Of a DNA stretch of 64,000 nucleotides, positions 14,718 through 38,031 are shown one piece after another. This DNA is from a virus: positions 1 through 64,000 of the IMG/VR virus record IMGVR_UViG_3300008113_000016. The stretch is one strand, 5' to 3'. Position numbers and translations under genes: made by a program. How positions within the stretch are numbered: position 1 is the first letter of the stretch; each line of letters begins with the position of its first letter. A model generated the notes under the pieces. The model was not told the origin of the DNA. It worked only from the letters and a program-made list of their open reading frames with translations, and made no database searches.

Positions 14718-17700
14718 AATTCGTTCGACGTTTATATATGACGGCGATTTTAGTTCTGTCCAATCTGGAATAAAAACATTAACCGCACAGGTTAACTTAC
14801 TTAATCGTTCATTTAATTCATTAGATTTAAATGCCAGAAAAGTTCAATCAGATTTAGCAAGAAGTTTTGCTGCAAACGTAGGTGCTATTGGCGGATTTAA
14901 AACAGCCATGGTCGATGTTGCTACAGCAACAGAAAGATTTGGCAATGCGTTACAAAAGCAAAAGTTAACTCTAAGAGAGTATGCAAGAGAATCAGTTAAT
15001 GCTTTTAGAAAAGCAAGTAATGCTAGGAAACTAGCAGAAGAACAAGTAAAGAGGATGCAGTCTACCCTTGTCCCAGTAGGTGGGGGCAAGGGAATGCTGG
15101 TTACCCCATTAACCCTAGATACAAAAGACTTTACAACTAAATTAGCGGTTGCAAGACAGCAATACGCTATTTTTAATAAGTTGGTCTCTGATGGAACAAC
15201 TCAGTTAATTAACTTTGGTAAGAACACTCAATGGGCTGGTAGACAGTTAACTGTTGGTCTTACAGTCCCAATAACAATTTTTGGATCCACCCTATCTAAG
15301 ACATTTAGAGAAGTGGATGCAGAGTTAACACGCTTTGCTAAAGTTTATGGAAGCGATTTAGTAAACAATAATAAGTATGCCACAGATCAAATGCGTGGAC
15401 AAGTTTTGCAACTTGCACAGACAATTGCAAAAGAATATGGAATTGCAGCAAAAGAAACTGCTGCTTTAGCAGCAGATCTTGCTGCCACTGGTCTTGAGGG
15501 TCAAGCCCTTATGGACTCAGTTGCTGAAACAACTCGTTTAGCAGTCCTTGGAGAAGTTGATAAGCAAGAGGCTATGAAGGCTACACTTGCTCTCCAAACG
15601 GCTTTTAATTTAAATACACAGGAACTAGCACAGTCAATTGACTTCCTCAACGCAGTCGAAAACCAAACCTCTACAACTCTTACTGACTTAGTTGAGGCTA
15701 TTCCTAAAGCAGGTCCAGTTGTTAAGGGCTTGGGCGGTGACATTAAAACATTATCTGTTTTGCTCACCGCAATGCGTGAAGGCGGTATTCCAGCAGCAGA
15801 AGCAGCAAATGCTATTAAGTCTGGTCTCGCTTCTCTTATTAACCCTACAAGGGCTGCTAACGAGCAACTAGCAAATTTTGGAGTAGACCTACAAGGAATT
15901 GTAGAAAGAAACAAAGGTCAACTACTTCCAACAATATTAGAATTTAAAACAGCATTAGATACACTAGATGAATTTTCAAAAGCACAAGCAATTGAAACAG
16001 TATTTGGAAAGTATCAGTTTGCAAGAATGGGTGCACTGTTCGATAACATTGGCGAATCTGGATCTCAGACAGTTAAGGTTATGGAACTTATGGGAGCATC
16101 AACAGCAGACCTTGCAAGAATTGCAGAGTCTGAAGTTTCAGCAGTAACCAACTCGACTTCAGCAAAGTTTAATAGAGCAGTTGAGTCAATTAAGGCTTCG
16201 TTAATTCCAGTTGGAGAAGCATTAACAAATGCAGTAATTCCTTTCCTAACTAAACTATCTGACTTGATTGCACAGATAACAGAAAAGTTTGACAAACTTC
16301 CAGGACCAATTCAAAACATCATTAAGGCTCTTGGAGTTATATCTGTTGTAGCAGGTCCAGTAATTATGCTTGTTGGTTTGTTTGCTAACTTTGTTGGTTA
16401 TGCAACCAAGGGTGCAATGGGAATCGTTAACCTTACTCGCAGAATGATGGGCTTGCCAGTAGATCAATTCCAGCAACTAACAAATGATCAGTTGGCAGCA
16501 AATATTGCAACAGACACTCTTACTGGATCATTTGCTTCTCAAAGATCTGCAGTAATGTCTTTGAATGCAGCATTAGAAGATTACATAATTAGTTTAAGAC
16601 AAGTACAAGCAAATCAACCTAACCTTGCTGTAGCAGGAAAAGGAAGACCACCAATTAGAAAACAAAAGGGTGGATCTATTCCAGGATATGGCGGAGGAGA
16701 TACAGTTCCAGCACTTTTGGAAAAGGGTGAGTTTGTTGTAAACAAAGCAGCAGCAAGATTCTTTAGACCACAACTAGAAGCAATGAATGCAAGAAAGATG
16801 CAAGATGGTGGAGGTACTGAAGGTTTAACTGCTGCACAAAAAGAATACATGCAAGACCTTAAGGATAATCCTTATTCAAGAAGTCACCTAACACCATTTG
16901 AAACAGAAGATGGGTTTAAGGTATTTGGTGGAACAACAGCAGCATCTACTGGTCCATATAACAGTGCACTAAATAACATTACTCAAATATTAAAAGATCC
17001 AGATAGCGAAAATTCTAAAACATTAAAGCAAGCAGCAAACATAGTTGCAGGAAAGACTGGAGTTTCTGCAGAATTTTTATTGTCTGGCAGAGAACCAGGA
17101 AATCTACAAGAAGCAAATGCACAGAGAGCATTTTTAAGCCATCCTCTTGTTGCTACAATGAAAACAAAGAAGGGTGAGCAGGCTATCAAGGGACGACGTG
17201 CTGCTGTAGGATTCTTAAGATCTTACACTGGAGGAATTAAGGGAACTCCAGACGAAAAAGAAGCAATCTTTAGACAAAGACTTGCAGAAAGAATGGCATT
17301 GAGCAGTGCGTCGCTATACAGAGATGCAACTCCAGAACAAATAAAAGCAATTTACGATGCAGAAAAGAGAAGAATTCTCCCTATCCTTGAAAGAACTCAT
17401 GGAGATCCAGATGAAAGAGGAAAGCAGTTAAGAGATTCTGCCAAAGTAACTTATTATGGCAATACTGTTGGCGGAAAACTTCTTTCTACACCATTGTTGT
17501 ATAAAGGAAAGAGCAGGGGTGATTCTGCTGGATCTGCAAGATCAATGGAAAGAACCATGCGTGAGGTTGGCGGAACATCATTTAAATTCCAAGGTGTTGG
17601 AATGGGCTTTAAGTCTCAAACTGGAGTTCCAGTAACAGTTGCAGAAAAGAGACCAGAGGTTGTAACTAATAAGCCTAAAGAAGGAACATCTAAAACTATT

Positions 17701-20637
17701 ACTACACAAAGCGGTAGAGTGTTTATTGGACCTATTGGAAAGAGACCAGGATTAGAAGAAGAAGGCGTAGTTAACCCTGATGGTTCAGTAGAAAGATTAA
17801 CAAAGAAAGAAAGAATGGCTCGTGTTGGAGCAAGTGCTGGAAATTATGGAATGACAGCATCTTTGCTTTTAAATACAATGTCTGCAATGTCAGGACAGAT
17901 GAGCAAGACAACAGAAAATCTTATTAAGTTTACAACTGCAATTGGTGTTGCAGGAATGGCAATGCAAGCAGCATCAGGTGTTGGTGGAATGTTTGGAAAG
18001 AGTGGTAAATTATTTGGAGCAGGTCAAAAGGTAGGTCTTCAAGGCGCACTGCTAAAGGGTGGAGCAAAAACTGCAGTTGGAAGAGGCGCAGGCGCAGCAA
18101 TGATGGGTGCAGGAAGAGCACTATCGTTCTTAGGTGGACCAGCAGGAATTGCAGTAGGTTTAGGTATCACTGCTGCAATATTTGCCCTAAACAAATATAA
18201 GCAAAGTTTAGAAGAGGCTAGACAACGTTCAGTTGCAGCGTTTGCTCAGTCTGCAAAAGCAGCAGAGTATTTTGGTGTTAAGTTAAAAGAAGCAACATTT
18301 GTTAGACCACAAGAGTCTAAACTTTTTGCAGATAATGCAGAAAGAGAGGCAATGCTTAAGATTGCAAATGAGGACTACAAGGTTCTTGTTAATAAGTTAA
18401 AGACTCAAAATAATGCAGATGCTATCTCAGAACTTCAACTAACATATGCTAGTTTAATTTCACAAGGATTTGATCAAGATCAAGCACAAAAGATTATTAA
18501 GGGTATTGCAGATGCAGCAAACAAAGAAAATATTGTTATTGATGTTATTGCAAACGTTAAAGATATTAAAACACCAAAGGACGCATTAAATGCCGTTGGA
18601 AACCAAGCAGTAAGAACATTGCAAGCAGGTGGAGTTGAAAATCAAGGTGCCTTTGCTGCTGCTGCAACCATGTCAATTGCTAAGAACTATCAAGCAGCAC
18701 CTCTAGAAGCATTAGGTCAGATTAAAGATATTGTTGCTGAAATTGACTCAACAGAATTTTCTGGATTTAGAACAGGGCTATATGACTCACTAAAAGAATC
18801 CCAACCTGAGTTAGCAGAATTTATTAAGGGTCTAAATAACTCTGAACAGGCTGGCAACGCATTGTTACTAGCACTAACTGGGCTTGACTACACACTAGCC
18901 TCTGGAGCAACAAGTGCAAGAGATTTAGCAGGTGCCCTAGCGCAGGCAGAAGCAAGAACTTCTGCAGCATCAGTAATTGACGAAGAGATTAAAAAAGAGC
19001 AAGAAAGATTTAAGGTTATTGAAAAGGGATACAATGATGCAATTGATGCTAGACAGTATGAGTTGGATCATCTTCAAGAGAATACCGAAAAGAAAATTAA
19101 GGCTCTTGAAAAAGAAAACCGTGCACTTCAAAAGAAACAAAACAATATTCGCAAAACAACAGATGCCTACCTTAAGGCTTTGGAAGAACAAACTAGTGCA
19201 GATAAATTCTATCAAGACCAAGCAAAAAGCGGAATTGGTGCTGCTGCTGCATTAGCATCTGGAGACGTTGTTGGATTCCTTCAAGGAAGAGCAGATATGG
19301 CTCAACAGGGTGCGGAGTTTAGCAAAGAGCAATCAATTACTGCCATTAAAGATAGATCAGATGCTGAAATTCAATTGTTGCAAGATAGAATTGATGCTAA
19401 CGAAGAGTCTATTAGAAAAGCAAGAGAGTATGCAGAAATTAGAGAGGCAACCCTTAAGAAAGAAATTACTGCCCAACGAAAAGCATTGGGTGCAGAAAGA
19501 GAAGCAAATTCAGCAAGAATTGACGCTCTTACAACTTTAAAGAATACAGATGTTACATTAAATAATGTAACTTCTACACTTGAAAAACTTAAGGGTAAGG
19601 CAAAAATGGGTAGCGATGAAATTCAGAGAATTGCTACAAGTTTAAGCAGTGCATATGGAAATGCTTATGGCAATGCAATTAAGCAGGCAGAAGTCTCAAT
19701 GAATTTGCCAGCAGGATCACTTTCTGATTTAATTAAGAATGAAGTTTCAAGAAGAATGTCTACCCCAACATACCCAACCCCATCGAATGTTTCTGGTGGA
19801 AATGGAGGAAAGGGAGGAGATGCTTCTTCTGGAATGTCAGGTGCTGGTCTTGGTTCAGTAGCATCTACTGGAGCAATGACAGATTTACCTTTGGCAGATA
19901 TTTTGAGAAGTGTTGGATCAACTTTTGGAGGAATGCCAAGTGGTGGAGATTATAGAAACCCTCTAAGTGGTTCACAATATAGAATCAGTTCTAATCCTGG
20001 AGAAAGAATAAATCCAATTACTGGAAGAAGAGAAGTTCACAAGGGAATAGATTTAGCAGCAGCACAGGGCACACCAATTGGTGCCTTCAAGAAGGGAACC
20101 GTAAAGTTTGCAGGACTAGATCCAGCAGAAGTTATGGGTAACAAAGTTGTTCTTGACCATGGCAATGGAATGACCTCAGTGTATGGTCATATGCTACCTA
20201 AACTGGGTGTCCAGAATGGGCAACAGGTGGACGCAGGAGCCATTTTGGGACGAGTTGGTAGCACTGGAAGGTCTACAGGTCCACACCTACACTTTGGTGT
20301 TTTAAAAGATGGAGAGTCATTAGATCCAAGACAGTTTGTGTCATTAAGAAAGGGCGGAATTATTGCCAAGGATGGAACTATGGCTAAACTTCACAAGGGT
20401 GAGATGGTAATGCCTAAGCCAATAGCAGAGAATATGTTTAGACAGTCAAGTCCAAGATTTAATCCTGCTGTACCAACAGCACCAAGAATGTCTCCATCAT
20501 CAACACAGAGTAGACAAACAAATGTTGGACCAACAACAGCGTACATTAGTTTCAATGGAAACATGAAGGATCCAGTTGCTGCTGCTAACGCAGTATATGG
20601 AAAAATGATGAGTATGAATAACAGGAGACCTAAGTAA
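14710..20637 (+). CDS. tail tape measure protein with C-terminal M23 peptidase
   Basis: A 1975-residue protein that sets tail length. The classic tape-measure domain lies at about 200-480 (AQTIAKEYGIAAKETAALAAD, AMREGGIPAAEAANAIKSG). Hydrophobic helices are at about 537-565 and 1142-1163. Two coiled coils lie at about 1422-1496 and 1548-1613. A GGDTVPALLEKGEFVVN motif near 660 and a similar AKLHKGEMVMPKPIA motif near the end are frequent in tape measures. Residues about 1740-1880 are an M23/LytM zinc endopeptidase: HKGID (His1777, Asp1781) and HLHFG (His1859, His1861), which probably opens peptidoglycan during DNA entry. By the usual rule of about 0.15 nm per residue the tail would be near 300 nm. 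Confidence 0.93.
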   Translation: MAEIRSTFIYDGDFSSVQSGIKTLTAQVNLLNRSFNSLDLNARKVQSDLARSFAANVGAIGGFKTAMVDVATATERFGNALQKQKLTLREYARESVNAFRKASNARKLAEEQVKRMQSTLVPVGGGKGMLVTPLTLDTKDFTTKLAVARQQYAIFNKLVSDGTTQLINFGKNTQWAGRQLTVGLTVPITIFGSTLSKTFREVDAELTRFAKVYGSDLVNNNKYATDQMRGQVLQLAQTIAKEYGIAAKETAALAADLAATGLEGQALMDSVAETTRLAVLGEVDKQEAMKATLALQTAFNLNTQELAQSIDFLNAVENQTSTTLTDLVEAIPKAGPVVKGLGGDIKTLSVLLTAMREGGIPAAEAANAIKSGLASLINPTRAANEQLANFGVDLQGIVERNKGQLLPTILEFKTALDTLDEFSKAQAIETVFGKYQFARMGALFDNIGESGSQTVKVMELMGASTADLARIAESEVSAVTNSTSAKFNRAVESIKASLIPVGEALTNAVIPFLTKLSDLIAQITEKFDKLPGPIQNIIKALGVISVVAGPVIMLVGLFANFVGYATKGAMGIVNLTRRMMGLPVDQFQQLTNDQLAANIATDTLTGSFASQRSAVMSLNAALEDYIISLRQVQANQPNLAVAGKGRPPIRKQKGGSIPGYGGGDTVPALLEKGEFVVNKAAARFFRPQLEAMNARKMQDGGGTEGLTAAQKEYMQDLKDNPYSRSHLTPFETEDGFKVFGGTTAASTGPYNSALNNITQILKDPDSENSKTLKQAANIVAGKTGVSAEFLLSGREPGNLQEANAQRAFLSHPLVATMKTKKGEQAIKGRRAAVGFLRSYTGGIKGTPDEKEAIFRQRLAERMALSSASLYRDATPEQIKAIYDAEKRRILPILERTHGDPDERGKQLRDSAKVTYYGNTVGGKLLSTPLLYKGKSRGDSAGSARSMERTMREVGGTSFKFQGVGMGFKSQTGVPVTVAEKRPEVVTNKPKEGTSKTITTQSGRVFIGPIGKRPGLEEEGVVNPDGSVERLTKKERMARVGASAGNYGMTASLLLNTMSAMSGQMSKTTENLIKFTTAIGVAGMAMQAASGVGGMFGKSGKLFGAGQKVGLQGALLKGGAKTAVGRGAGAAMMGAGRALSFLGGPAGIAVGLGITAAIFALNKYKQSLEEARQRSVAAFAQSAKAAEYFGVKLKEATFVRPQESKLFADNAEREAMLKIANEDYKVLVNKLKTQNNADAISELQLTYASLISQGFDQDQAQKIIKGIADAANKENIVIDVIANVKDIKTPKDALNAVGNQAVRTLQAGGVENQGAFAAAATMSIAKNYQAAPLEALGQIKDIVAEIDSTEFSGFRTGLYDSLKESQPELAEFIKGLNNSEQAGNALLLALTGLDYTLASGATSARDLAGALAQAEARTSAASVIDEEIKKEQERFKVIEKGYNDAIDARQYELDHLQENTEKKIKALEKENRALQKKQNNIRKTTDAYLKALEEQTSADKFYQDQAKSGIGAAAALASGDVVGFLQGRADMAQQGAEFSKEQSITAIKDRSDAEIQLLQDRIDANEESIRKAREYAEIREATLKKEITAQRKALGAEREANSARIDALTTLKNTDVTLNNVTSTLEKLKGKAKMGSDEIQRIATSLSSAYGNAYGNAIKQAEVSMNLPAGSLSDLIKNEVSRRMSTPTYPTPSNVSGGNGGKGGDASSGMSGAGLGSVASTGAMTDLPLADILRSVGSTFGGMPSGGDYRNPLSGSQYRISSNPGERINPITGRREVHKGIDLAAAQGTPIGAFKKGTVKFAGLDPAEVMGNKVVLDHGNGMTSVYGHMLPKLGVQNGQQVDAGAILGRVGSTGRSTGPHLHFGVLKDGESLDPRQFVSLRKGGIIAKDGTMAKLHKGEMVMPKPIAENMFRQSSPRFNPAVPTAPRMSPSSTQSRQTNVGPTTAYISFNGNMKDPVAAANAVYGKMMSMNNRRPK

Positions 20638-25201: not shown

Positions 25202-26952
25202 TGCCTGGTTTTTTAGATAAAATTAAGAGTGCTGCAAGCAAAGCAGTTACCGCAGTTAAGAGCGCAGCAACAAGTGCTGTAAAGGCAGTAATCTCTCCAA
25301 TCACATCTTTTCAGTCTGGAATGACAGTTGCAGCAGCACCTGCACAACTTAAAGCACCAGTTGCTCAAACACTACAGTCTTCTAAAGCAGCAGAGAAAAA
25401 AGCGGAAGAAACTGCAAAGACTGCTGTTTCAAAAAAGGGAGTAGACGTTGCTGTAAACCTTGCAAAAGAAATATCTGGAGTTGCTGGAGTAGGTAGAATT
25501 GTTGAGGCTGTTAAGACAACATCCCTTGACCCATTTAGAACTCAAACTGGATTTGGAACTGCAGGAAACTTAGCAATAGATGTTTTAGGTGCAATACCAT
25601 TAATTGGTGCAGCAGCAAAGACTGCAAAAATTGCAGCAGTTGGTACTGCTGCAACAGCAGGAACAGCACTAGAAAGTGTTGCAAAGATTCCAGGTGCACA
25701 GAGCGCAATTAGTAAGGGAATGCTAACTGCTGCTTTATTAAATCCAGCAGCAGATGTTGCAACAGCAGTCAAAGCACCAACATCTATTTCAAGGGTTGTA
25801 GACGGAACTGGATTAACAAATGCTGGAGAAAGAATAACAGATGCTGTTAGTGCTGCAGATAAAATTGCAGATGCTGCAAAGTCAAGTGCTGCAAGTAAAG
25901 CAACTAAGATAGCAGATGATGCAGAAGAAATTGGATCAGTTGGTAGAGTTGCAAAAACTCCAGTATTCAATCCTTCTTTGGCTTTAGATTCTTTTAAAAG
26001 CGAATCTAATCAAGCATCACAAGATGCAAAGTCTGCACAAGATCAAGCATCAAAAGAGGCACAAGAAAATGCTAACAAGGCAGCAGACAAAGCAGTAGAT
26101 GAAGTTAAGAGTGCTTCTGAAGATTCCAATAAAGTAGTTGCTGGAGATGAAAACTCATTATTTAATGAAGTTAATAAGGTTCAAGATGAAATAAAGAACG
26201 AAGTAGCAAAAACAGATGAAACTAACAAGGTAAATCCAACTAAGGATCCAGAGATAAGCAAAACTACCCTAGATCCAAACACTACTTTGAAACCAGTTGT
26301 AAAGCCAACTCCAGCCCCAGACCCTGACCCAACCCCTAAACCAGTTGTAGAAACCACTCTTTTTGTTCCACCTAAATACACTACAACAAATGAGCCAGAG
26401 ACTACAACAACACTTAGTCCAGAAACTACTATTTTTATTCCACCGACAACTCCTGAGCCAACTAAGTTTAAAATACTAAACCCCATTCCTGAACCACCAG
26501 TAATTGAGGCAGCCAGTTTTCCAGACGATGTTGTTAGAATGCCTAGCCTACAACAAAGAACTGCAGGTGCCTACGAGAAACTGTCCCTTGGTTTAGACAA
26601 CGATTTCCTCATAGACTCATTTGACTTTAACTCAGTAGACTTAGCCCCAACAGGTCAGAATGTAGTAAATGCTAATAGTATTGATATAATTGATGATATT
26701 GCAATGCAGTCAATTGTGTCAAAGCAGTTGCCAGATGAGGCTATTAGTGATAAAATTGTTAAAGCACCTGATTATTCTAATTCGGACTTCGGATCATTTT
26801 TGACCTTCAAACTTCAAAATGGTAAAACCGTTGCATCGAATGCTGCTGGACAGCAAACAGCAACCTCTGGATTGCCGTTCTATTCAGTAGTTCTTAATAT
26901 TCCAGAAACAGAGGGTGTAGTAAAATATGAAGTCCAGATTACGGAGGGATGA
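25201..26952 (+). CDS. tail protein with Ala-rich N-terminus and Pro/Thr linker
   Basis: 583 residues. The first ~260 are Ala/Lys-rich and helical (KIKSAASKAVTAVKSAATSA), with a small-residue hydrophobic core at about 120-170. A polar coiled-coil-like stretch lies at about 265-345, and a Pro/Thr linker at about 350-425 (TTLKPVVKPTPAPDPDPTPK) recalls the linkers of the giant fibre. The C-terminal ~150 residues form a compact polar domain ending in VVKYEVQITEG. It overlaps the genes on both sides. The family is not recognised; a minor tail protein is likely from context. Confidence 0.6.
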   Translation: MPGFLDKIKSAASKAVTAVKSAATSAVKAVISPITSFQSGMTVAAAPAQLKAPVAQTLQSSKAAEKKAEETAKTAVSKKGVDVAVNLAKEISGVAGVGRIVEAVKTTSLDPFRTQTGFGTAGNLAIDVLGAIPLIGAAAKTAKIAAVGTAATAGTALESVAKIPGAQSAISKGMLTAALLNPAADVATAVKAPTSISRVVDGTGLTNAGERITDAVSAADKIADAAKSSAASKATKIADDAEEIGSVGRVAKTPVFNPSLALDSFKSESNQASQDAKSAQDQASKEAQENANKAADKAVDEVKSASEDSNKVVAGDENSLFNEVNKVQDEIKNEVAKTDETNKVNPTKDPEISKTTLDPNTTLKPVVKPTPAPDPDPTPKPVVETTLFVPPKYTTTNEPETTTTLSPETTIFIPPTTPEPTKFKILNPIPEPPVIEAASFPDDVVRMPSLQQRTAGAYEKLSLGLDNDFLIDSFDFNSVDLAPTGQNVVNANSIDIIDDIAMQSIVSKQLPDEAISDKIVKAPDYSNSDFGSFLTFKLQNGKTVASNAAGQQTATSGLPFYSVVLNIPETEGVVKYEVQITEG

Positions 26953-27827
26953 TGAAAGGCAAGTATAAAATTTACCTTGACGGCAAATTAGTTGCAGAGC
27001 AAGAAAACATCATTACTAATCGTGGCAAGAGCATGATCCTTAGACATATTGCTGGAACAGGTTCTCAGTTTGCTGGACAGATTGCAGTTGGAATTGGTGG
27101 AATTGCAGCCACTGCAAATGATGACACACTAGATTTTGAAATATTAAGACTTCCTATCAAGTCCTCTTCTTTAGACTCAGACTATCAGATTGTATACAAG
27201 GCTACTCTAGAAACAGAAGAAGAGTATCAGATTAAAGAGATAGGAATTTATCCAGCAGAACTATTTAGACAAAGAAAGAATATATATAGTCAGTTATTGT
27301 TTGATATGGATGTTACAGAAACTTGGCTTAAGCCTAATGGAGACAGTGCTGTGGTGGCAAAATCTAGTACCTATCCAAACGTCAGAGTGGGTTCTACGGC
27401 TGTTTCAGTCGCATCTGGTTCAACTGCATCAGCAGAAACAGTTTTAGATTTATCAGGATATTTAGACACAGATAGATTTAAGATGGCTGTTCAGAGGGTA
27501 AGCACAAACTCAACAGTTACGCTAGAATTTTATTCTGGTCAAACCTCTAAAGCAACCTTTACTGGGGTGCTAGACTCAGACTATGAGATCTTATCTTTTG
27601 CAAAGGCAACTGCTTCGTATACTGGCACAGTAGACTGGTCAAACATAACAAAAATTGTTATCTCCTCTAATGGTGGAGATATTATCGTAGATGGCATAAG
27701 GGTAGATGTTACCTCTGAGGCAACACCCCAATTCTCTTTAGTTTCTAGATCCGTATTTAGCACCGTTCAGGAAAAACCAAAATCGGTTATAATGGATATC
27801 GAATACTACTTGGACATTGACTTCTAG
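26949..27827 (+). CDS. putative tail tip / fibre-base protein
   Basis: 292 residues. ATG 26949 overlaps the preceding stop (ATGA) after GGAGGG; ATG 26952 is a second possibility. The opening DGKLVAEQENIITNRGKSMILRHIAG and later EYQIKEIGIYPAELF resemble a family of phage tail proteins with an N-terminal strand plus a turn region that precede large fibres. The C-terminal half is beta-rich (a second sandwich, about 140-250). Probably the adaptor for the giant fibre gene, which starts nine bases later. Confidence 0.6.
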   Translation: MMKGKYKIYLDGKLVAEQENIITNRGKSMILRHIAGTGSQFAGQIAVGIGGIAATANDDTLDFEILRLPIKSSSLDSDYQIVYKATLETEEEYQIKEIGIYPAELFRQRKNIYSQLLFDMDVTETWLKPNGDSAVVAKSSTYPNVRVGSTAVSVASGSTASAETVLDLSGYLDTDRFKMAVQRVSTNSTVTLEFYSGQTSKATFTGVLDSDYEILSFAKATASYTGTVDWSNITKIVISSNGGDIIVDGIRVDVTSEATPQFSLVSRSVFSTVQEKPKSVIMDIEYYLDIDF

Positions 27828-27835
27828 GATAAATA

Positions 27836-30800
27836 ATGCAAATAAACATTCCTGACCTAATACCTGGAAAAACATATAAAGTTAGACTTAGAGGAGTCAC
27901 CACGGATGGTGGCGTGTCTGAGTGGTCAAGAGTTTATGAATTTGCAGTACCTTCTAATCTTCCAGTTGCTCAACCAATTAACCCTTCAAGTATTGTTATT
28001 ACCCCTCAGTCTGATAAATCATTTTTAATATCTTGGGACAAGGTTGAGAACACAGGAACTCTTGTATTTAGGAATGGAAGATTTGAGATAGAAGGTCTTT
28101 CTAATAAAGGTCTTATCAAAGATTATAGAATTGATATTGGCTGGATAGGAGTTGCACCAAAAGCAAACTACAACCCGTCAGATGCGTATTGGTCTAAAAC
28201 TGCTTTGGGTTCCTTGGCTTCACGAGGAACTACTGCTGACGACACAACATTAATTCCTTTATTCTCAACAACAACAGGAAATAATAAATTTGTATTTAAC
28301 TTAGATGATAACAGTGCTGCATTTTCTGGAGCCAAGGGCGCAATTGCTATTTTTATTAGAGCAAGAACTGTTAACAATCTAGTACTTCCTCAAGACTCAG
28401 TTTATATTGTAGACACAAACAATTTAGTATACTCTGGTGGATTTTCTGGTGGCAATGCTCTTTCAATGGCATCAAGTACATCTACAGCAAATTGGCAAGA
28501 AGGTGGTCTTCAGTTATCTTGGAACCCTGTTGCTAATGCATCATCATACAAGATAGATATAACATCTACTTCTGGATCAACAAAATCATATTATTCTGTA
28601 GACAGTAATTTCTTTTACACTACAGCACAAAATCTTTTAGACTGGGGTGGAGTATTTAATCATCAGGATACTATTAAGTACAGAATATATCCATCAGATA
28701 ACTTTGAGTATTATTCTGGAACATCTGGATCTTCAGTCATATTGAGTAAGTATGGCATTCCAACTCAAGAAAATACAACTGCATTGTCAAATTTTGCTGC
28801 TATTTCAACCAACCTTAGACCAGAGGTTGTTCAAACTTCTGGAAAGTTTGTTGTATATCTGCCACTATCAATTAAGTCTTCTTTACAAACGGGAGATACA
28901 GTTAACTATTATTGGACCCAAGGAACTGTTGAAACTATTAATGGACAAGTTCAATATAATCCAGCACCAGTAACTAGAAACCCAAATAACAAAATCTCTA
29001 CAAGCCTAACCGTTGTAGAAGTTCCATCAGGTGCCAACGCTTCTCTTCAGCATGCTAATTATAGGTTTTGGTTTGGAATTGTAAAAGCAGGGTCTCAAAC
29101 AGAACAGTTTTCTCAAGCATTTCCAGAAGACTCTGTTGTTGGAATTAAGCCTGGACCAATTGTCGATGTAGATTCAGGATATCAACTTATTGCAGAAAAT
29201 GTAAAGTCTGGATCGTATGTATCTAATACTTCTGGATGGCAAATCAATAAGTCTGGTAGTGCAGAGTTTAATAACCTTCTTGCTCGTGGAGTTATTGTAG
29301 CAAAGAGCGGATCATTTGTTGAGTCCCTTAAGGTTGGTAATGCTTTAGGAAATCAATCGATTACATTAGATGGATCAGACCCTCTTGTTGGAAAGATATT
29401 TATTGGAAACGGTCAATACTTTAACACAGGAACTGGATTCTATGTTGACGGAACAGGTAACTTTAGCCTTTCAGATAGACTTGGATATTCACAAGCATTT
29501 AACCTTTTGCAGGTTAATGGAGGAATTAGGCTTACATATCCTTCTGTAGTAGAAGATAACTTTGGTGTTACCTCTGGAACTCTCTATGTTGGTAGTTCTC
29601 CAGTAAGTGGTTCAAGAATTACTCTTACCTCTTCAGGATTAAGATCTTTTGATTCATCAAACAATATAACTTTTGGAATTACTCCAACAGGACCAAGTGG
29701 TTCTGTAGCAGGATGGTCAATTACAGACTTAGACTCTTCTGGAAAATACAATGTTCTTGCATCTACTGCTTCTAAATTTTTCTTAGACTCCAAGCACTCT
29801 AGAGCCGTATTTGGTAGTTTTGCAGGAAGTAATAGACTTCAGATTACTGCCAACTCAATATCTAATGCAAACTTTCCAAATGTTAAACTAGGATTGGATA
29901 CAGAAAGTATCTCAGCACAGATTTCATCTGTTGTTGGTATGACAATTAACTCAAACACTTTCTCATTAAATCACGGTTCAAGATCAGTAAAAATAGGAAA
30001 CACGGGAGTAGACATTGTTGGACCAGTTAAACTTAATCTAAACAATATTGAAAGAACCACTGCTGGATCTACACCATACGATATGGTTGTTATGGACACA
30101 AGAGATGGTCAACTATATAGAGTTCCTTCAGCAACATATAACGTAACCACAGCAGCACCAGTATTAAAGAACACAGTAACTACAACAGTTCCTAATGTGA
30201 TTGGTCTTACTTTAAATTCAGCCTTGTCAACCGTACAAACAGCAAACCTACAAACAAGAATATCGGATACAACTATTATTACTAGCAATGCCTTGCTAAA
30301 CGGAGTCATTGCAACACAAAGCCCAATGTCATACACGTCTGCTGACGTAGGATCAACAGTTTATCTTTCTATTTACGAATACTCATCTTCTGGTCTATCT
30401 TTGGTTCAGGTACCTAACTCATTAAGTGAAAACGATGTTGTTGCTAAAAATACAATTGAGGCAATAGGATTAACATATAGAGTTAGAAGTTCAATTAATA
30501 CTACTAACCCTGCACTATATAATAAGATTGCAGAACAAGATCCAATTCCAGGAACATATGTAAAACCTGGAACAACCGTTAACGTTGTTTTGTATCAGCC
30601 AGAGGGTGCTGCAACAGTTCCGAATGTAATTGGTTTAGGACAAACTCCAGCAACTACAGCACTTACTGCTTTAGGTTTTTCTGTAACGGTCAACAATATA
30701 ACAACTTTGCAGTCAACACTAAACAATTTAATTTACACACAGTCTGTTGCCCCTGGAACAAGTTTAAGAGTAGGTTCTACAGTTGTACTAAACAAACTTG

Positions 30801-33800
30801 TTTATACAAGCGGAAGTCCAGCAGCCCCAACATCTGGAGTAGTTCCAGACCTATTTGGATACTCTTTGACGCAGGCTAATCAAAGAGCAAATACTTCTGG
30901 ATATGGTATTAGCCTTGTAGCGGGTGTTCCAACAGAAAATCCAGATCTTGCAGACAAAATTTATTCTCAGTCTCCTGCTCCAGGAACAAGTCTTACAAGT
31001 GGATCATCTATATCTGTTACAACATACAACCTAGTATCTTTTAAAACAGTTCCAAACGTTTTGGGCTTAACAACAACAAATGCAACCTCTCTTATTACTG
31101 CTGCAAACCTACAGGCTGAAGTTGTTGGAGATGTTGAGTACGTCGATTCAAGTATTGGTTTAGACTTTTCCTTTAAGGTTAAATCTATAAGTTCAACTGC
31201 ACAGTTAAACGGTCAATCTTATCCAAATCAAAACATGTACTTTTTTGTGGAGTCAACTAAATACAATGAAGCAGATACCCCTCTATCTGATGATGACTAC
31301 ACTTTATTTCCTCCATTTTCAGTAAAGATTGGAAATACCTATAAGGTAGATCAAAGCGATTCTTCAAATACTGGAAGAGCAATGTTCTTTAGCACTACAA
31401 CATCGGAAAGCAATGTTTTAACTCCATTTCAGGGTATTAGATATTATATTAATAATCAACAGGTACCAGACTATGCTGCGTATAAGGCAGCATTTAATAC
31501 TGCCACAAGCCGTTATGTAGTTATAACACCATCTTCTCAAACACCTTCAACATTTAAATACAGATGTTCTGCTGCAGACTCTAATGTTTTATTAGACTCA
31601 TCATCTCCAGACGCAGCAAAATTAACCTTAGACTCAGATAACCTAACTGGAACTGTTGCATATCAGATTCCAGTTTCTGGCTCAAAGATGATTACAGACA
31701 CAAAGATTAAGTTGTATAGATATAAAGTTGTTGGGGCAAGAGGAACAACGGCAGCACCTCAATTTTATCCAGCACCAAATACAAGTGGTTTAACAAGAAC
31801 TGACGCATCTTTAGTTGTTCAAAATACTAAATTGATTCCAGTGATTTATGAAACAAAAGTTTTGGCTACTGCTGGAACAGATAACTTTGTTTATGCTCAA
31901 AATCCACAGGCTGGATCATTTTTGGAAGAAAATAGCAACGTAAACCTTTTTGCGTATAAAGTTGTTACATCTTTCCAAAATGGTAGAACTATACCAAACC
32001 TTATTGGAAATAGTGCAACCTCTGCATTTACAGCCTTGAATGCAATCAACCTACAAAATGTTATTAATTACTATACAACTTCAAATCAATCTCTAGACAA
32101 TATTGTTTTTGATCAGTTCCCTAAGTCTGGAACAGTAGTTGAAGATGCTTCTACCATGGTAATAAGCGTATACAAGTTTGAAGAAGAGTCCACTACAACA
32201 ACTACGACAACTGCTGCGCCAACCACTACAACTACAACAACAGCAGCCCCAGGAACTGTTTTTGTTAACGCCCCACAACTCTTAAACCTAACCTTTAGTG
32301 CTGCAGTCTCTTCCCTGACCTCACTTGGTCTTATATATCAATCTGAAACCGTTAACACATCTAACCCAGACCTAAACAATAAAGTTTATTCTCAGTCTCC
32401 AGTAGCAGGAACATCTTTGCCAGTTGGATCAAGCGTCACAGTTTATTACTACACATATGTTGGTGCTACAACAGCAAGCCCAATTGTTACAACCACATTG
32501 CCACCAGCAAATACTGCAACGGTACCAAACGTTGTTGGATTGACGGAAACTCAAGCAAAGTCTACTCTAACCACAAATTCTTTTGTTGGTGTTACAACAA
32601 CAGAAACTTTGACAGCAGAGCAGTCATTAAACAATATAGTTTATGCACAATCTCCAAGTGGAGGAAACTCTGCTACAGTTTCTTCAAACGTTGCACTATC
32701 TGTTTACAGATGGAATGGAAGTACCCCCGCACCAGTTACTACGACAACAACCACGACAACTGCTGCCCCAACAACCACAGCAGCACCTACTACATCTGCC
32801 CCAGGAACAACCTCTGCTCCAAACCAAACATCTTCCGTAAGTAGTTTATCTCCTACAAGTGGGTCAACTGCTGGTGGTTATAGCGTTACAATTTATGGAA
32901 CTTTTCCTACTCCAATTACCAATATTTCGGTTGCTGGAACTAATATTGCTGTAAACAGTTGGAGCCAATCATCTTCTTCAATTTCTTTCCCAATGCCATC
33001 AAGATCTGCTGGTACTGTAGGAATTCAAGTCTTTAATGGACTGACCCCACTAATGTCTGAACTATCATTTACATATACATCTGGAACAACTGCTGCAACC
33101 AATGGACCAGTTCCAAACGTAGTTGGACTTTCATATGATAGTGCATTTACAACACTTTATAATGCTGGTTTCCAGGTTGATGCCTCTGTTGCCAGTACAA
33201 CTGTCGCTTCTAATGATCAAAAGGTTTACGCTCAAGCACCTTCTGGAAATAGCACAGCAACATATGGAACAACAGTTAATATTTATTTTTACCAATATAG
33301 TGGAACTACAACTGCAGCACCTACATTAAAACTTTGTACTCAAGCAGATGTTAGTAACATTAACAATGCTTGTACTGTTGTAAATACTTGTAGATCATAC
33401 GGAAACGGTGCTTCTTGTACAACAGACCAAACTACAACTACTACAACAACTACTGCTGCTCCTTCAGGCGCAACATGGTACTGTACATACTCTGTTTGTA
33501 ACCCATTCTCTGGATATTATTCTACACAGCCATCAAACTATGGAACTTATTCAACGGATCAATCAACAACTTATGGTGGTGGAAGTTCTTACACTAAGAT
33601 TGCTTGTAATACAACCGCTTATAATATTTCTGCAGCAGCACAGGCTCCTTGCGAGTCAGTTGCTACTACCACTACAACTACAACAACTGCAGCCCCTACT
33701 ACAACCACAACAACGGCTGCTCCAACATATTATTATGCTTCTTGGTGTTCATATGGTCAATGCTACACTGACTATGTTTCTACAAGTTGCGCTACAATGA

Positions 33801-34672
33801 GAAACTTAGCAGAAGCAGATTCTGGTGGATCGTTTAGTGGATTTACATGCTCTACATCTGGATATCCACCATGCCCTGCTGCTTGTTCTGGAGGTCAAGT
33901 AACAACTACTACAACCACAACAACAACCACAGCAGCACCAACAACATGGTATTGTACTTACTCTGTATGTCGTGGAACTTCTGGCGCATATATTACTAGC
34001 CCACAAGTTTATGGAACTTATTCTTCAAACCAAACGGCTACATCCTCTAGCGGTGGAAACACTACTAAGATTGTTTGCTATACAACTGGATACGATGTTA
34101 CAGCAGCACAGCAACCAGCATGCGAAGGATTTACCACTGCTGCACCAACTACAACCACAACAACTACTACATCTGCTTCTTGCGTTTGTGTATACTCTGA
34201 TTATGGAACATATTATTATTCACCACAGTGCTGTTCTTCTGGAGCACCAAGATCTGGTTCTTTAAGTGGGGTTACTTCTGGAGACTGCTGTCCTAACGTT
34301 AATAAGGCTACAACTGCTGCTCCCACAACAACGGCTGCTCCTACAACCACTGCTGCACCAACTACAACTTCTGCATCTTGTGTTTGCGTCTATTCTGACT
34401 ATGGAACATATTACTTTGCTCCTCAATGCTGTCCAGCAGGTGCACCAAGATCTGGAGCATTAAGCGGAACAGCATCAGGATCATGTTGTCCAGATGTTGC
34501 AAAGGCTACATCAGCACCAGCCACAACTACAACAGCAGCACCTGCTACTACAACCACTGCTGCAGCGTCTGGAAGATTCTGTACTTCTGCTAATATTGCA
34601 AACCCATCAAATCCATGCTACAGTACATCTCAGTGCAGTTCACAAGGAAGCGGTAGTTTATGTTTCGTATAA
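27836..34672 (+). CDS. giant tail fibre: FN3-like, about ten PASTA-like domains, IPT domain, Thr-rich linkers and Cys-rich repeats
   Basis: 2278 residues. Order seen: fibronectin-III-like strands (about 1-310, e.g. PGKTYKVRLRGVTTDGGVSEW); a tail-fibre core with GWQINKSGSAEFNNLLARG (about 460-560); from about 780 to 1822 repeated PASTA-like units (VPNVIGL ... QSPxxGT ... GSxVxLxVY), roughly ten, the fifth interrupted by a degenerate cupredoxin-like insert (about 1105-1250); an IPT/TIG-like domain (about 1667-1750); and a Cys-rich tail (1830-2278) with at least three kinds of duplicated modules joined by poly-Thr/Ala-Pro linkers. PASTA domains bind peptidoglycan fragments in bacterial kinases and penicillin-binding proteins, so this is probably a cell-wall-binding receptor fibre. 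The start ATG has only a weak upstream site. Confidence 0.85.
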   Translation: MQINIPDLIPGKTYKVRLRGVTTDGGVSEWSRVYEFAVPSNLPVAQPINPSSIVITPQSDKSFLISWDKVENTGTLVFRNGRFEIEGLSNKGLIKDYRIDIGWIGVAPKANYNPSDAYWSKTALGSLASRGTTADDTTLIPLFSTTTGNNKFVFNLDDNSAAFSGAKGAIAIFIRARTVNNLVLPQDSVYIVDTNNLVYSGGFSGGNALSMASSTSTANWQEGGLQLSWNPVANASSYKIDITSTSGSTKSYYSVDSNFFYTTAQNLLDWGGVFNHQDTIKYRIYPSDNFEYYSGTSGSSVILSKYGIPTQENTTALSNFAAISTNLRPEVVQTSGKFVVYLPLSIKSSLQTGDTVNYYWTQGTVETINGQVQYNPAPVTRNPNNKISTSLTVVEVPSGANASLQHANYRFWFGIVKAGSQTEQFSQAFPEDSVVGIKPGPIVDVDSGYQLIAENVKSGSYVSNTSGWQINKSGSAEFNNLLARGVIVAKSGSFVESLKVGNALGNQSITLDGSDPLVGKIFIGNGQYFNTGTGFYVDGTGNFSLSDRLGYSQAFNLLQVNGGIRLTYPSVVEDNFGVTSGTLYVGSSPVSGSRITLTSSGLRSFDSSNNITFGITPTGPSGSVAGWSITDLDSSGKYNVLASTASKFFLDSKHSRAVFGSFAGSNRLQITANSISNANFPNVKLGLDTESISAQISSVVGMTINSNTFSLNHGSRSVKIGNTGVDIVGPVKLNLNNIERTTAGSTPYDMVVMDTRDGQLYRVPSATYNVTTAAPVLKNTVTTTVPNVIGLTLNSALSTVQTANLQTRISDTTIITSNALLNGVIATQSPMSYTSADVGSTVYLSIYEYSSSGLSLVQVPNSLSENDVVAKNTIEAIGLTYRVRSSINTTNPALYNKIAEQDPIPGTYVKPGTTVNVVLYQPEGAATVPNVIGLGQTPATTALTALGFSVTVNNITTLQSTLNNLIYTQSVAPGTSLRVGSTVVLNKLVYTSGSPAAPTSGVVPDLFGYSLTQANQRANTSGYGISLVAGVPTENPDLADKIYSQSPAPGTSLTSGSSISVTTYNLVSFKTVPNVLGLTTTNATSLITAANLQAEVVGDVEYVDSSIGLDFSFKVKSISSTAQLNGQSYPNQNMYFFVESTKYNEADTPLSDDDYTLFPPFSVKIGNTYKVDQSDSSNTGRAMFFSTTTSESNVLTPFQGIRYYINNQQVPDYAAYKAAFNTATSRYVVITPSSQTPSTFKYRCSAADSNVLLDSSSPDAAKLTLDSDNLTGTVAYQIPVSGSKMITDTKIKLYRYKVVGARGTTAAPQFYPAPNTSGLTRTDASLVVQNTKLIPVIYETKVLATAGTDNFVYAQNPQAGSFLEENSNVNLFAYKVVTSFQNGRTIPNLIGNSATSAFTALNAINLQNVINYYTTSNQSLDNIVFDQFPKSGTVVEDASTMVISVYKFEEESTTTTTTTAAPTTTTTTTAAPGTVFVNAPQLLNLTFSAAVSSLTSLGLIYQSETVNTSNPDLNNKVYSQSPVAGTSLPVGSSVTVYYYTYVGATTASPIVTTTLPPANTATVPNVVGLTETQAKSTLTTNSFVGVTTTETLTAEQSLNNIVYAQSPSGGNSATVSSNVALSVYRWNGSTPAPVTTTTTTTTAAPTTTAAPTTSAPGTTSAPNQTSSVSSLSPTSGSTAGGYSVTIYGTFPTPITNISVAGTNIAVNSWSQSSSSISFPMPSRSAGTVGIQVFNGLTPLMSELSFTYTSGTTAATNGPVPNVVGLSYDSAFTTLYNAGFQVDASVASTTVASNDQKVYAQAPSGNSTATYGTTVNIYFYQYSGTTTAAPTLKLCTQADVSNINNACTVVNTCRSYGNGASCTTDQTTTTTTTTAAPSGATWYCTYSVCNPFSGYYSTQPSNYGTYSTDQSTTYGGGSSYTKIACNTTAYNISAAAQAPCESVATTTTTTTTAAPTTTTTTAAPTYYYASWCSYGQCYTDYVSTSCATMRNLAEADSGGSFSGFTCSTSGYPPCPAACSGGQVTTTTTTTTTTAAPTTWYCTYSVCRGTSGAYITSPQVYGTYSSNQTATSSSGGNTTKIVCYTTGYDVTAAQQPACEGFTTAAPTTTTTTTTSASCVCVYSDYGTYYYSPQCCSSGAPRSGSLSGVTSGDCCPNVNKATTAAPTTTAAPTTTAAPTTTSASCVCVYSDYGTYYFAPQCCPAGAPRSGALSGTASGSCCPDVAKATSAPATTTTAAPATTTTAAASGRFCTSANIANPSNPCYSTSQCSSQGSGSLCFV
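30160..33310 (+). repeat. array of about ten PASTA-like coding repeats
   Basis: Within the giant fibre gene, units of about 65-75 codons repeat. Each opens with a VPNVxGL-like strand, has a central helix, a (Y/F)xQSPxxGT turn and an edge strand ending in Tyr-rich residues. Approximate residue starts are 780, 858, 925, 1000, 1066, 1300, 1380, 1478, 1557 and 1753. The copies are diverged at DNA level, so this is an old expansion, not a recent tandem duplication. Confidence 0.7.
32188..34566 (+). repeat. Thr-rich (mucin-like) linker tracts
   Basis: Runs of ACA/ACT codons encode tracts such as TTTTTTAAP and TTAAPTTTAAP. They occur near 32188-32247, 32734-32823, 33427-33467, 33661-33725, 33901-33945, 34133-34165, 34310-34375 and 34507-34566. 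They separate folded modules and would be extended, hydroxyl-rich spacers. Confidence 0.8.
33328..34672 (+). repeat. duplicated Cys-rich modules at the fibre tip
   Basis: Three module types recur. One begins TWYCTYSVC (near 33475 and 33946), with a related YASWCSYGQC form near 33730. One begins ASCVCVYSDYGTYY and ends CCP plus V-K-A (near 34174 and 34372). One begins (K/R)(L/F)CT and holds six or so cysteines (33328 and 34573), placed at the two ends of the region. Shared layout shows internal duplication followed by divergence. Confidence 0.75.
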
Positions 34673-34688: not shown

Positions 34689-35354
34689 ATGAAAGAAGTT
34701 CTAAGAATGCCTAATCTAGTTGGACTAGATGTTGGTGCAGCAACCCAAATGCTAAACAGTTTTGGTTTTCAAAATGTAGAGTTTCAGCCAGTAATTCCAA
34801 AAGATCAAAACTCTACGATTAATATGGTTTATCACCAAAGCGTACAGTTTGATACAGACATTAAAGCATTTGACGCTATTACAGTTTACTATTACTATAA
34901 AGAAGAAAAGCCCAACGAGTACTATGCTTTTGTTGGAAAAGACACATTGGTAAACACAGTAACTGGAATGAAGTTTGTTTCAGACCTTATGGCAAAAGAT
35001 GTTATTCTTTCTTTAAATGATCAGTCTTTAGCAAAAAGTGGACAGGCTCCAGAAGACCCAGTTTTAGGAGTAATCTATCAAGTTAAGCCTATAAGTTTTA
35101 AATGGTATTGGGCAATCAACGACATGACGGTTGGATATCAGCAAGAATTCCTTATAAAAAGAAATGGAATTTGGGCTTACATTATTGCTGACGATTTAAA
35201 AGTTGGAGACACAGGATTAAACTCAGAACTAGTAGAAACTCAGATAACTAGCAAGGTAAGAATAGATGCTCCAATTAGCGGATATCAATTGTTAATTGTT
35301 GACTCTAAGCCAATCATTACGGAGTCATTTGTAATCAGAACAAGAACGGAGTAA
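34689..35354 (+). CDS. PASTA-like domain protein next to the giant fibre
   Basis: 221 residues. It begins with one PASTA-like unit (about 5-72: RMPNLVGLDVGAATQMLNSF and a VYYYYK edge strand) matching those of the preceding gene. It then has a beta-rich second domain (about 75-221) with SFKWYWAINDMTVGYQQEFL. Starts at ATG 34689 after AAAGGAG. It may be a chaperone, a cap or a second receptor-binding piece of the same fibre. Function is inferred from the shared domain and position. Confidence 0.7.
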   Translation: MKEVLRMPNLVGLDVGAATQMLNSFGFQNVEFQPVIPKDQNSTINMVYHQSVQFDTDIKAFDAITVYYYYKEEKPNEYYAFVGKDTLVNTVTGMKFVSDLMAKDVILSLNDQSLAKSGQAPEDPVLGVIYQVKPISFKWYWAINDMTVGYQQEFLIKRNGIWAYIIADDLKVGDTGLNSELVETQITSKVRIDAPISGYQLLIVDSKPIITESFVIRTRTE

Positions 35355-35357
35355 TTG

Positions 35358-36338
35358 ATGAAGAAGTCTATCTTCATACAAATTCCTTCCTATAAGGACT
35401 ACGAACTTGAACCTACAATTCTAGACTGTATCAATAAGTCTTCTGGCAAGTTTGATTTAAGGTTTGGAGTTTCTTTACTTGTTCATGGAAAAAACGATGT
35501 ACCAGTTCCAAAGTTATCTAATGTTCATGTAACTAGATTAACATTTGATGATGGCTATGGTGTTGGATTTTCTAGAGCAAGGGCTAACGAATGGTATGCT
35601 GGAGAAGACTACTACTTTCAAATTGATTCACATGAAAGGTTTAAACCAAACTGGGATCTATACCTAGTTTTAGAATTAGAAAGATTAAAAGCAAATGGAT
35701 ACAATAAGCCATTAATGTCTGGATACCCTCAGAATTATTGGTTTAATGATTATGGTATGCCAACATATTTTGATGATGACTATATAACTAGTTTTAAATT
35801 TGTAGATAAAAATATTACTCAATTTTCAGAAACAGGAGTGTTAGATCAAACTGCACACCTTAATGATAAAAGCAGAACAATCAGAGCAAGATCATCTTGT
35901 GCTGGAATGGTGTTTACTGTAGGAGACTACGGTCTTATAAAGCCAAATGAAAAGATTATGTTTTGGGGAGAAGAAAACCTACAGTCTGCAAGAGCAATCA
36001 CTAATGGATTTAGTTTATTTACTCCTCAAAAGAATGTTGTTTACCATCAGTATTTTGCAAAGAGTGAAGAGAACAGAAGCCACAAAAGAAATAAAAGAGC
36101 GCATGTTTGGTCAGACCTAAGAGATCATGGATTTGACGACTGGCATCAAAAAGATGAGGCTGGAAAAGAGTATCTAGTTAATCTATTTAAAAACTGGGAG
36201 ATAAGTCAAGAAGGACTAGGCAGCGTTGTAAGTAAAGAACTGTATACTCTATACACTGGGATAGATCACGACTTGCGTTCTTTGACAGAAGATGCTATAA
36301 TGGGAACTGAACCAAACGACTTATTAAGGAATATATAA
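35358..36338 (+). CDS. GT60-like (GlcNAc-type) glycosyltransferase
   Basis: 326 residues, soluble, with no membrane segment. The sequence fits the GlcNAc/GT60-type transferase fold: IFIQIPSYKDYELEPTI near the start, GVGFSRARANEWYAGED, then the donor-site signature QIDSHERF and NWD (about 95-107), and FWGEENLQSARAI later. These enzymes add GlcNAc to hydroxyl side chains in the known eukaryotic example. ATG 35358 follows GGAG by six bases; TTG 35355 is less likely. Its position after a fibre with long Thr tracts suggests that it may decorate that fibre, or it may modify the host surface. Confidence 0.78.
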   Translation: MKKSIFIQIPSYKDYELEPTILDCINKSSGKFDLRFGVSLLVHGKNDVPVPKLSNVHVTRLTFDDGYGVGFSRARANEWYAGEDYYFQIDSHERFKPNWDLYLVLELERLKANGYNKPLMSGYPQNYWFNDYGMPTYFDDDYITSFKFVDKNITQFSETGVLDQTAHLNDKSRTIRARSSCAGMVFTVGDYGLIKPNEKIMFWGEENLQSARAITNGFSLFTPQKNVVYHQYFAKSEENRSHKRNKRAHVWSDLRDHGFDDWHQKDEAGKEYLVNLFKNWEISQEGLGSVVSKELYTLYTGIDHDLRSLTEDAIMGTEPNDLLRNI

Positions 36339-37230: not shown

Positions 37231-38031
37231 ATGAGTAACGATTTAAAATGGATGCTGTCGTCTGATCAGCAATTTCCTTATCAGGACGATAAAGCCATTG
37301 AGTTGTGGTTTAAAGTCCTAAAATGGTTTAAGCCAGATGTAGTTGATTATCTTGGAGACACAGATGATCAGGCTTGTTACAGCAAGTATACTGAGGGAAG
37401 ATCAGCAGAGTTCTTAAACCTACATAAGACTGACAGTCGAGACCTTATTGTTCCCATGATGAGACATGAGGCGAAAGGCGCAAGAGATTTTTATACAAAG
37501 ACTCGTGAGATGCTTCCAGATGCACAATTGTTTTCTGCGTTGGGAAATCACGACGTAAGAATTTTTGATTATTTAGACAAAAAGTTACCAGAATACATTT
37601 CAGAAGTAACTCCAGAATCTTTGTGGTCTTTGGACTCCTTGGGATACGAATACATTTACTACAACGAATTGCCAAAGCGTCGCTTTGGAGATATTCACGT
37701 TCATCACGGATTGTCTGTTTCGGATACAGGTGCTGTTCGTAAAGACATGAATGATCTACAGATTTCTTTGATCCGTGGACACTCACATAGAATTGCTTCA
37801 CACTTACAAACATACGAGTTGCGTAATAATGGAGAGGGCGAAACTATCCGTGGATATGAAATCGGGCACATGTGCGATGAGAAGGGTCCAGGAATGAAGT
37901 ATACCCAACACCATGATTGGCAAAAGGGGTTTGCTATTGCACACATTGTAAATGATTATCCACATATTCAGATGATTCATATTGCACCAGATTATTCATG
38001 TGTTGTAGATGGAAAGGTGTTTAAGGTTTGA
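37231..38031 (+). CDS. calcineurin-like metallophosphoesterase
   Basis: 266 residues with the ordered metal-binding motifs of the family: SSDQQ near residue 10, LGDTDDQ (about 40-46), LGNHD (about 107-111), HVHHG (about 156) and RGHSH (about 180). Phage members of the family include phosphatases and nucleases such as the DNA end-processing SbcD group; the natural substrate here is unknown. It is the first gene after the replication promoter. The ATG 37231 follows AGAAAGG. Confidence 0.87.
   Translation: MSNDLKWMLSSDQQFPYQDDKAIELWFKVLKWFKPDVVDYLGDTDDQACYSKYTEGRSAEFLNLHKTDSRDLIVPMMRHEAKGARDFYTKTREMLPDAQLFSALGNHDVRIFDYLDKKLPEYISEVTPESLWSLDSLGYEYIYYNELPKRRFGDIHVHHGLSVSDTGAVRKDMNDLQISLIRGHSHRIASHLQTYELRNNGEGETIRGYEIGHMCDEKGPGMKYTQHHDWQKGFAIAHIVNDYPHIQMIHIAPDYSCVVDGKVFKV

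Follow-up and report, generated by a model that had tools for sequence, protein, structure and literature searches.

PASTA is regarded as a bacterial wall-sensing domain of kinases and penicillin-binding proteins, and its fold consists of one helix packed on a three-stranded sheet, in the order beta-alpha-beta-beta. Here we describe a viral gene whose product, probably a tail-tip fibre, carries ten such units. The gene lies in a 64,000-nucleotide stretch of DNA (hereafter, the window) that comprises positions 1 to 64,000 of IMG/VR virus record IMGVR_UViG_3300008113_000016, which totals 96,513 bases. Among the closest described systems are the PknB, PrkC and Stk kinases, which are membrane proteins with tandem extracellular arrays of three to four PASTA units. 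The PASTA domains of PknB bind specific muropeptides and place the kinase at the septum and poles (PMC3145798). PknB also binds diaminopimelate (DAP)-lipid II, and an S-K-x-N-Q linker motif precedes its terminal PASTA unit (PMC6428115). In PrkC, one of three PASTA units binds, through Arg500, and the study concludes that a PASTA domain does not inherently bind muropeptides; arrays of known structure are linear (PMC3601408).

By profile and by predicted structure, the fibre units are the same domain as those of the kinases, but there are ten of them, joined in part by runs of threonine and proline, in a protein with neither a kinase nor a membrane segment. The open reading frame (ORF) is intact and encodes 2278 residues. 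PF03793 (PASTA) matches it over ten stretches with E=2.4e-65 (216.8 bits, compared with a Pfam cut-off of 23.2). When single units were searched against Pfam, nine fibre units and one unit in a neighbouring ORF exceeded the curated cut-off, and one further unit matched partially. The NCBIfam model PknB_PASTA_kin aligns to the fibre in its PASTA part only (E=2e-52; 179 bits, against a 450-bit cut-off), and the Pfam search found no kinase or transpeptidase domain in the fibre. No other family in the profile libraries scores on the PASTA stretch. A profile built from the ten units, when compared with PDB sequences, matched Staphylococcus aureus PrkC (3m9g, 4.7e-14) and Mycobacterium tuberculosis PknB (2kui, 1.9e-13).

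The array is laid out as follows. Boundaries were taken from a refined phage PASTA profile that was trained in part on these same units; complete units are supported both by that profile and by the search of Pfam by unit.

27836..34672, plus strand: tail-tip fibre in the minor tail protein position (ORF, Pfam, and synteny with Streptomyces phages BillNye and Peebs)
30185..30382, plus strand: PASTA unit 1, residues 784-849
30407..30601, plus strand: PASTA unit 2, residues 858-922
30614..30805, plus strand: PASTA unit 3, residues 927-990 (also modelled with AlphaFold2)
30839..31033, plus strand: PASTA unit 4, residues 1002-1066 (also modelled with AlphaFold2)
31046..31126, plus strand: N-terminal half of PASTA unit 5, residues 1071-1097 (32.4 bits as a separate piece; partial Pfam match)
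31148..31621, plus strand: insert of about 160 residues within PASTA unit 5, without a family match
31634..31729, plus strand: C-terminal half of PASTA unit 5, residues 1267-1298 (refined profile, 15.8 bits)
31772..31963, plus strand: PASTA unit 6, residues 1313-1376
31988..32179, plus strand: PASTA unit 7, residues 1385-1448
32270..32461, plus strand: PASTA unit 8, residues 1479-1542
32519..32710, plus strand: PASTA unit 9, residues 1562-1625
33110..33298, plus strand: PASTA unit 10, residues 1759-1821

Unit 5 at first resembles a dead half-unit, a possibility that we rejected when its other half was located beyond the insert. This C-terminal half lay outside the training set, and its score of 15.8 bits exceeds the best of 2000 shuffles (12.0 bits). 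The pitch is 69-75 residues from unit 1 to the start of unit 5, and later units are spaced apart by Thr/Pro-rich runs and by an immunoglobulin (Ig)/TIG-like spacer. Among the units, identity to the first aligned one ranges from 17 to 41%, and the conserved PASTA motifs are encoded by mixed codons. We therefore rejected a recent tandem expansion; the array appears to be an old, protein-level repeat rather than a recent repeat of DNA. Mixed codons also encode the threonine runs of the linkers, so these too show no sign of a recent triplet expansion.

The fold of the units was predicted by applying AlphaFold2 to units 3-4, using as input an alignment (25 rows) of pairs of units found in the window and at other phage loci. 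The model has a mean predicted local distance difference test score (pLDDT) of 94.3 and a predicted template modelling score (pTM) of 0.51. Its 30 best PDB matches all contain PASTA domains (PknB, PrkC, StkP, PBP2x, PBP1 and PonA2), as do all 25 of the matches with E<=0.001. One modelled unit superimposes on 5e0y at 1.3 A, with a TM score of 0.86. The fibre units are thus predicted to adopt the PASTA fold.

These results bear out the original prediction, made from the letters of the window alone, of a phage fibre with about ten PASTA-like domains at 30160-33310: the domains are genuine PASTA, and they were found from 30185 to about 33300. Neither of the outcomes that it named as refuting was seen: PF03793 matches the array and the 221-residue neighbour, with no rival family on the array stretch, and the significant structural matches are solely to PASTA-containing entries. 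Its assignment of the gene to a tail-fibre-type protein is likewise upheld by the tail-tip domain, the N-terminus and the gene position described below. Its further reading, of a receptor-binding strategy directed at wall fragments or at the division site, is a possibility only.

The phage itself is, judging from its genes, a Stanwilliamsviridae-like actinophage. Its DNA polymerase and those of BillNye-type Streptomyces phages share 56% identity, its 1337-residue minor tail protein matches 127 Streptomyces and five Rhodococcus phages, and it encodes a WhiB protein, a family used as an actinophage marker (PMC9878933). Because of the WhiB gene and the Streptomyces-phage relatives, the host is very probably an actinobacterium, in which no Gram-negative outer membrane covers the peptidoglycan.

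The gene order of the window is that of BillNye and Peebs: capsid protease, tape measure protein, minor tail protein, a minor tail protein of about 1000 residues, a tail protein of about 290 residues, a minor tail protein of about 2000 residues (the position of the fibre), an HNH gene and a metallophosphoesterase. Only in the window do three additional ORFs separate the fibre gene from the HNH gene. The tape measure protein (14710-20637) has a C-terminal peptidase/endolysin-like domain at residues ~1750-1900. The gene immediately 5' of the fibre gene encodes the orthologue of the protein that precedes the minor tail protein in Streptomyces phages. The remaining features of the fibre, together with this upstream gene, are listed below.

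26949..27827, plus strand: 292-residue tail protein (phrog_9983, E=5.8e-42; 31-35% identity in alignment A3)
27836..28045, plus strand: N-terminal FN3-like segment of the fibre, residues 1-70 (36% identity to Peebs gp63, E=7e-7)
29063..29314, plus strand: Phage_Tail_Tip domain PF09327, residues 410-493 (Pfam E=7.5e-6; tblastn matches to host-specificity proteins J)
32831..33091, plus strand: Ig/TIG-like spacer between units 9 and 10 (assigned by eye; phmmer 3e-9 to PASTA protein L171 of another phage)
33323..34669, plus strand: Thr/Pro-rich linkers and Cys-rich tip modules, residues 1830-2278 (from composition)

BillNye gp192 and Peebs gp63 share with the fibre their gene position, a size of about 2000 residues, the N-terminal FN3-like segment and PF09327. 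However, they carry fn3 and CBM_4_9 carbohydrate-binding modules where the fibre has PASTA units and Cys-rich tips, and no PASTA domain was found anywhere in the BillNye and Peebs genomes. After PF09327, a tail-tip segment with weak matches in ten relatives extends to about residue 775 of the fibre. The Ig/TIG-like spacer has no Pfam match. The last ~450 residues are 7.5% cysteine and 23% threonine, and contain small, repeated Cys-rich modules. The final module is duplicated, with one pair recognizable as a 198-bp duplication of DNA. Searches with the Cys-rich modules across the collected loci returned a single weak match for one module type, in PASTA protein L178 (E=0.001).

We propose that the protein is a modular actinophage tail-tip fibre in which a PASTA arm presents Cys-rich receptor-binding tips and possibly contacts the wall itself, an account that we favour on balance, by a slight degree. 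The FN3-like and Phage_Tail_Tip parts at the N-terminus would anchor the fibre at the tail tip in the manner of Streptomyces phages. In the half that would face the host, the PASTA arm would take the place of the fn3 and CBM_4_9 arm of related phages. Units 1 to 4 and the start of unit 5 would be expected to make up an elongated rod like those of PknB and PrkC, and the Cys-rich modules that end the arm would be the likeliest receptor-binding tips. For the arm itself, reach combined with weak multivalent contact with the wall seems most likely, over specific receptor binding. The modular-arm proposal is supported by unrelated phage contigs, in which the same set of modules recurs (PASTA, FN3 or Ig, low-complexity linkers and Cys-rich modules, in some cases with Hint at the C-terminus). 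Several observations weigh against it. The units were modelled confidently, but the model does not fix the angle between them (hence its pTM); the function of the tips was assigned solely from position and composition; and among the relatives examined, no close relative carries the same PASTA array.

Relatives of the array were sought in several collections. The fibre has no PASTA relative at 1e-5 among 50,697 phage records. Four canonical phage PASTA units, when used as queries, retrieved only three unannotated faecal contigs and short "Listeria phage" records. The matches in the latter, which are 5-7 kb long, were not used because they may represent host DNA for a kinase or penicillin-binding protein. 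Searches by protein pattern with the fibre, the 292-residue tail protein and a PASTA pair gave no matches. A PASTA match above the cut-off occurs in four of 50 IMG/VR relatives, none of which has an array. We also considered the metallophosphoesterase (37231-38031) as a marker of the fibre's kin. This gene is 88-93% identical in dozens of IMG/VR phages, whereas their tail genes are only 25-40% identical. It therefore appears to have been exchanged recently between lineages, and was rejected as a marker.

A search of IMG/VR with one DNA pattern (encoding VPNV..G and a Q-S-P motif) was more productive, yielding 56 stretches, 48 of which have PASTA ORFs. The largest sets have seven units (L193 and L239), six (L214) and four (L201 and L220), so the ten units of the fibre are the largest array encountered in these searches. 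The partner domains include FN3 (L205), a He_PIG Ig domain (L229), and a Laminin-G lectin domain with DUF2612 (L201). The DUF2612 part of L201 most closely resembles structural proteins from phages of Gram-negative bacteria, Burkholderia and Xanthomonas among them. PASTA arrays are also joined to DUF2612, a tail/baseplate-type protein, in L218 and L219. In L231 (two units), L173, L177 and L171, PASTA is accompanied by low-complexity linkers and Cys-rich modules, and a Hint domain lies at the C-terminus. Proteins such as those of L193/L239, L214, L201 and L231 resemble the fibre in combining PASTA arrays with adhesin-type modules, but they have fewer units, belong to different genome types and show no full-length homology to it. 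Five of the 48 PASTA-bearing pattern records, a set that includes many short fragments, contain WhiB.

Databases already list PASTA in phages, as an automatic label. A structure search of BFVD/UniProt recovered several entries named "PASTA_pknB domain containing protein" from uncultured Caudovirales phage (for example, A0A6J5NDH4). Such entries are automatically named with no function assigned, and the structural match covers at most two units. In the library of papers that was searched, none dealt with PASTA in tail fibres. Judging from the sequences collected here, PASTA is a recurrent component of phage tail-like proteins. A broader proposal, that phage PASTA arrays are multivalent adsorption arms whose binding to uncrosslinked stems or lipid II steers adsorption to the growing wall at the septum or poles, seems to us doubtful.

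For the fibre in the window, the best-surviving alternative to a modular arm with Cys-rich tips is that the PASTA units themselves are the receptor binders, providing many weak sites for uncrosslinked peptidoglycan stems or lipid II and holding the phage at sites of active wall synthesis (septum or poles). The ligands and location of PknB are those expected under this explanation, the actinobacterial host is compatible with it, and ten copies would provide avidity. Also, the peptidase domain of the tape measure protein shows that the wall is encountered at entry. However, the residues involved in binding by the kinases are not evident in the fibre. As a reference we used the genomic PrkC of Bacillus spizizenii (L243, 648 residues, with Arg at residue 500). 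Arg500, the one DAP-binding residue that has been mapped, aligns with the proline of a V-P-N motif, and none of the ten aligned units (nine from the fibre and one from the neighbour) departs from proline there. When linkers were inspected by eye, no S-K-x-N-Q motif was seen ahead of any phage unit, and basic residues are few (41 Lys and Arg in the 1043 residues of the array). Because PASTA domains employ different residues in different proteins, these results are negative hints against muropeptide binding, not proof. A further objection is the array in the DUF2612 tail protein of L201: this protein is matched best by Gram-negative phages, for which peptidoglycan is not exposed. Given these findings, and because a PASTA domain does not of itself confer binding, its presence in a phage does not necessarily signal a peptidoglycan receptor. 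We consider direct receptor binding by the array possible, but rather unlikely.

Less probable still is that the array is a mere spacer that sets length, is freely swapped with FN3, Ig or beta-helix segments, and has no role in contact. This explanation would fit the position of PASTA beside generic spacer domains (FN3 and He_PIG) in phage proteins, and also the high divergence of the units. Moreover, the closest member of the lineage that spans the region, as judged by helicase (61%) and polymerase (71%), has an 814-residue ORF without PASTA at this position (L046). On the other hand, the distal units adjoin the likely tips, the modules replaced relative to Streptomyces phages are carbohydrate-binding, and some short proteins have single PASTA units, which a pure spacer would not need. 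That the gene encodes instead another surface protein of the virion (one decorating the head or tail), or a protein made in the infected cell that is not part of the virion, is very improbable: although PHROGs offers no tail family for the PASTA part and a fibre is recognized here from genes alone, the tail-tip domain, the common N-terminus and the exact synteny with annotated minor tail proteins all oppose it.

Two genes downstream of the fibre gene are also relevant.

34689..35354, plus strand: neighbour of 221 residues, with a PASTA unit (residues 7-69) and an apparently inactive domain of Hint/bacterial intein-like (BIL) fold (residues 80-221, at 34926-35351) (Pfam, AlphaFold2 and Foldseek)
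35355..36338, plus strand: PF11397-type N-acetylglucosamine (GlcNAc) glycosyltransferase, the next gene (Pfam E=1.2e-30)

The second PASTA-like protein that the original prediction placed at 34689 does contain one PF03793 unit, which scores 23.4 bits in the whole-protein Pfam search (cut-off 23.2) and 25.4 bits in the single-unit search. Its other domain matches PT-HINT weakly in Pfam (E=0.007). An AlphaFold2 model of this domain, made with six phage relatives (alignment A8), has a pLDDT of 91.3, and its best Foldseek match is the bacterial intein-like structure 2lwy (E=8.7e-8, TM 0.75), with inteins and hedgehog proteins also matched. BIL/Hint domains such as 2lwy thus share the predicted fold of this domain. 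However, the start Cys, the His and the C-terminal His-Asn/Asp that are kept in several phage relatives are absent from the neighbour; in the alignment, it lacks the catalytic start Cys/Ser and the end His-Asn, and reads Ala-Phe-Val-Gly and Arg-Thr-Arg-Thr-Glu, respectively, in their place. Therefore, no autoprocessing is expected, and this is probably either a relic without activity or a domain with a structural role. Hint/BIL domains close many long phage adhesins with low-complexity linkers (L140, L170, L171, L173, L177 and L231). Since the same domain terminates long PASTA adhesins in other phages, the neighbour may once have been the end of such an adhesin that became detached. In several other phage adhesins, in which the Cys and His-Asn/Asp persist, self-cleavage of the fibre end is plausible.

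We guess that the PF11397-type enzyme glycosylates the Thr/Pro-rich linkers of the fibre. Another PASTA phage (G023) has a PF11397-type glycosyltransferase gene (66983-67795) less than 2 kb from a PASTA unit. We also considered that a prolyl hydroxylase might act with the GlcNAc transferase on the proline-containing linkers. This was rejected because the 96.5-kb record has no 2-oxoglutarate (2OG)-Fe(II) oxygenase, which leaves only glycosylation as the guess. Several relatives (G018, G034-G036, G038, G047 and G048) have seven to 14 matches to 2OG-Fe(II) oxygenases per record.

In this phage, a domain regarded as a wall sensor is the main module of a predicted tail-tip fibre, and a simple scan finds PASTA in dozens of tail-like proteins of uncultured phages, alongside FN3, Ig, lectin, Cys-rich and intein-like domains. 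Whether such arrays bind wall polymers, or whether PASTA is one more exchangeable stalk module, thereby becomes a directly testable question. Either answer bears on how phages without cultured hosts recognize actinobacteria, and the phage PASTA arrays are ready-made candidate binding probes for the cell wall.

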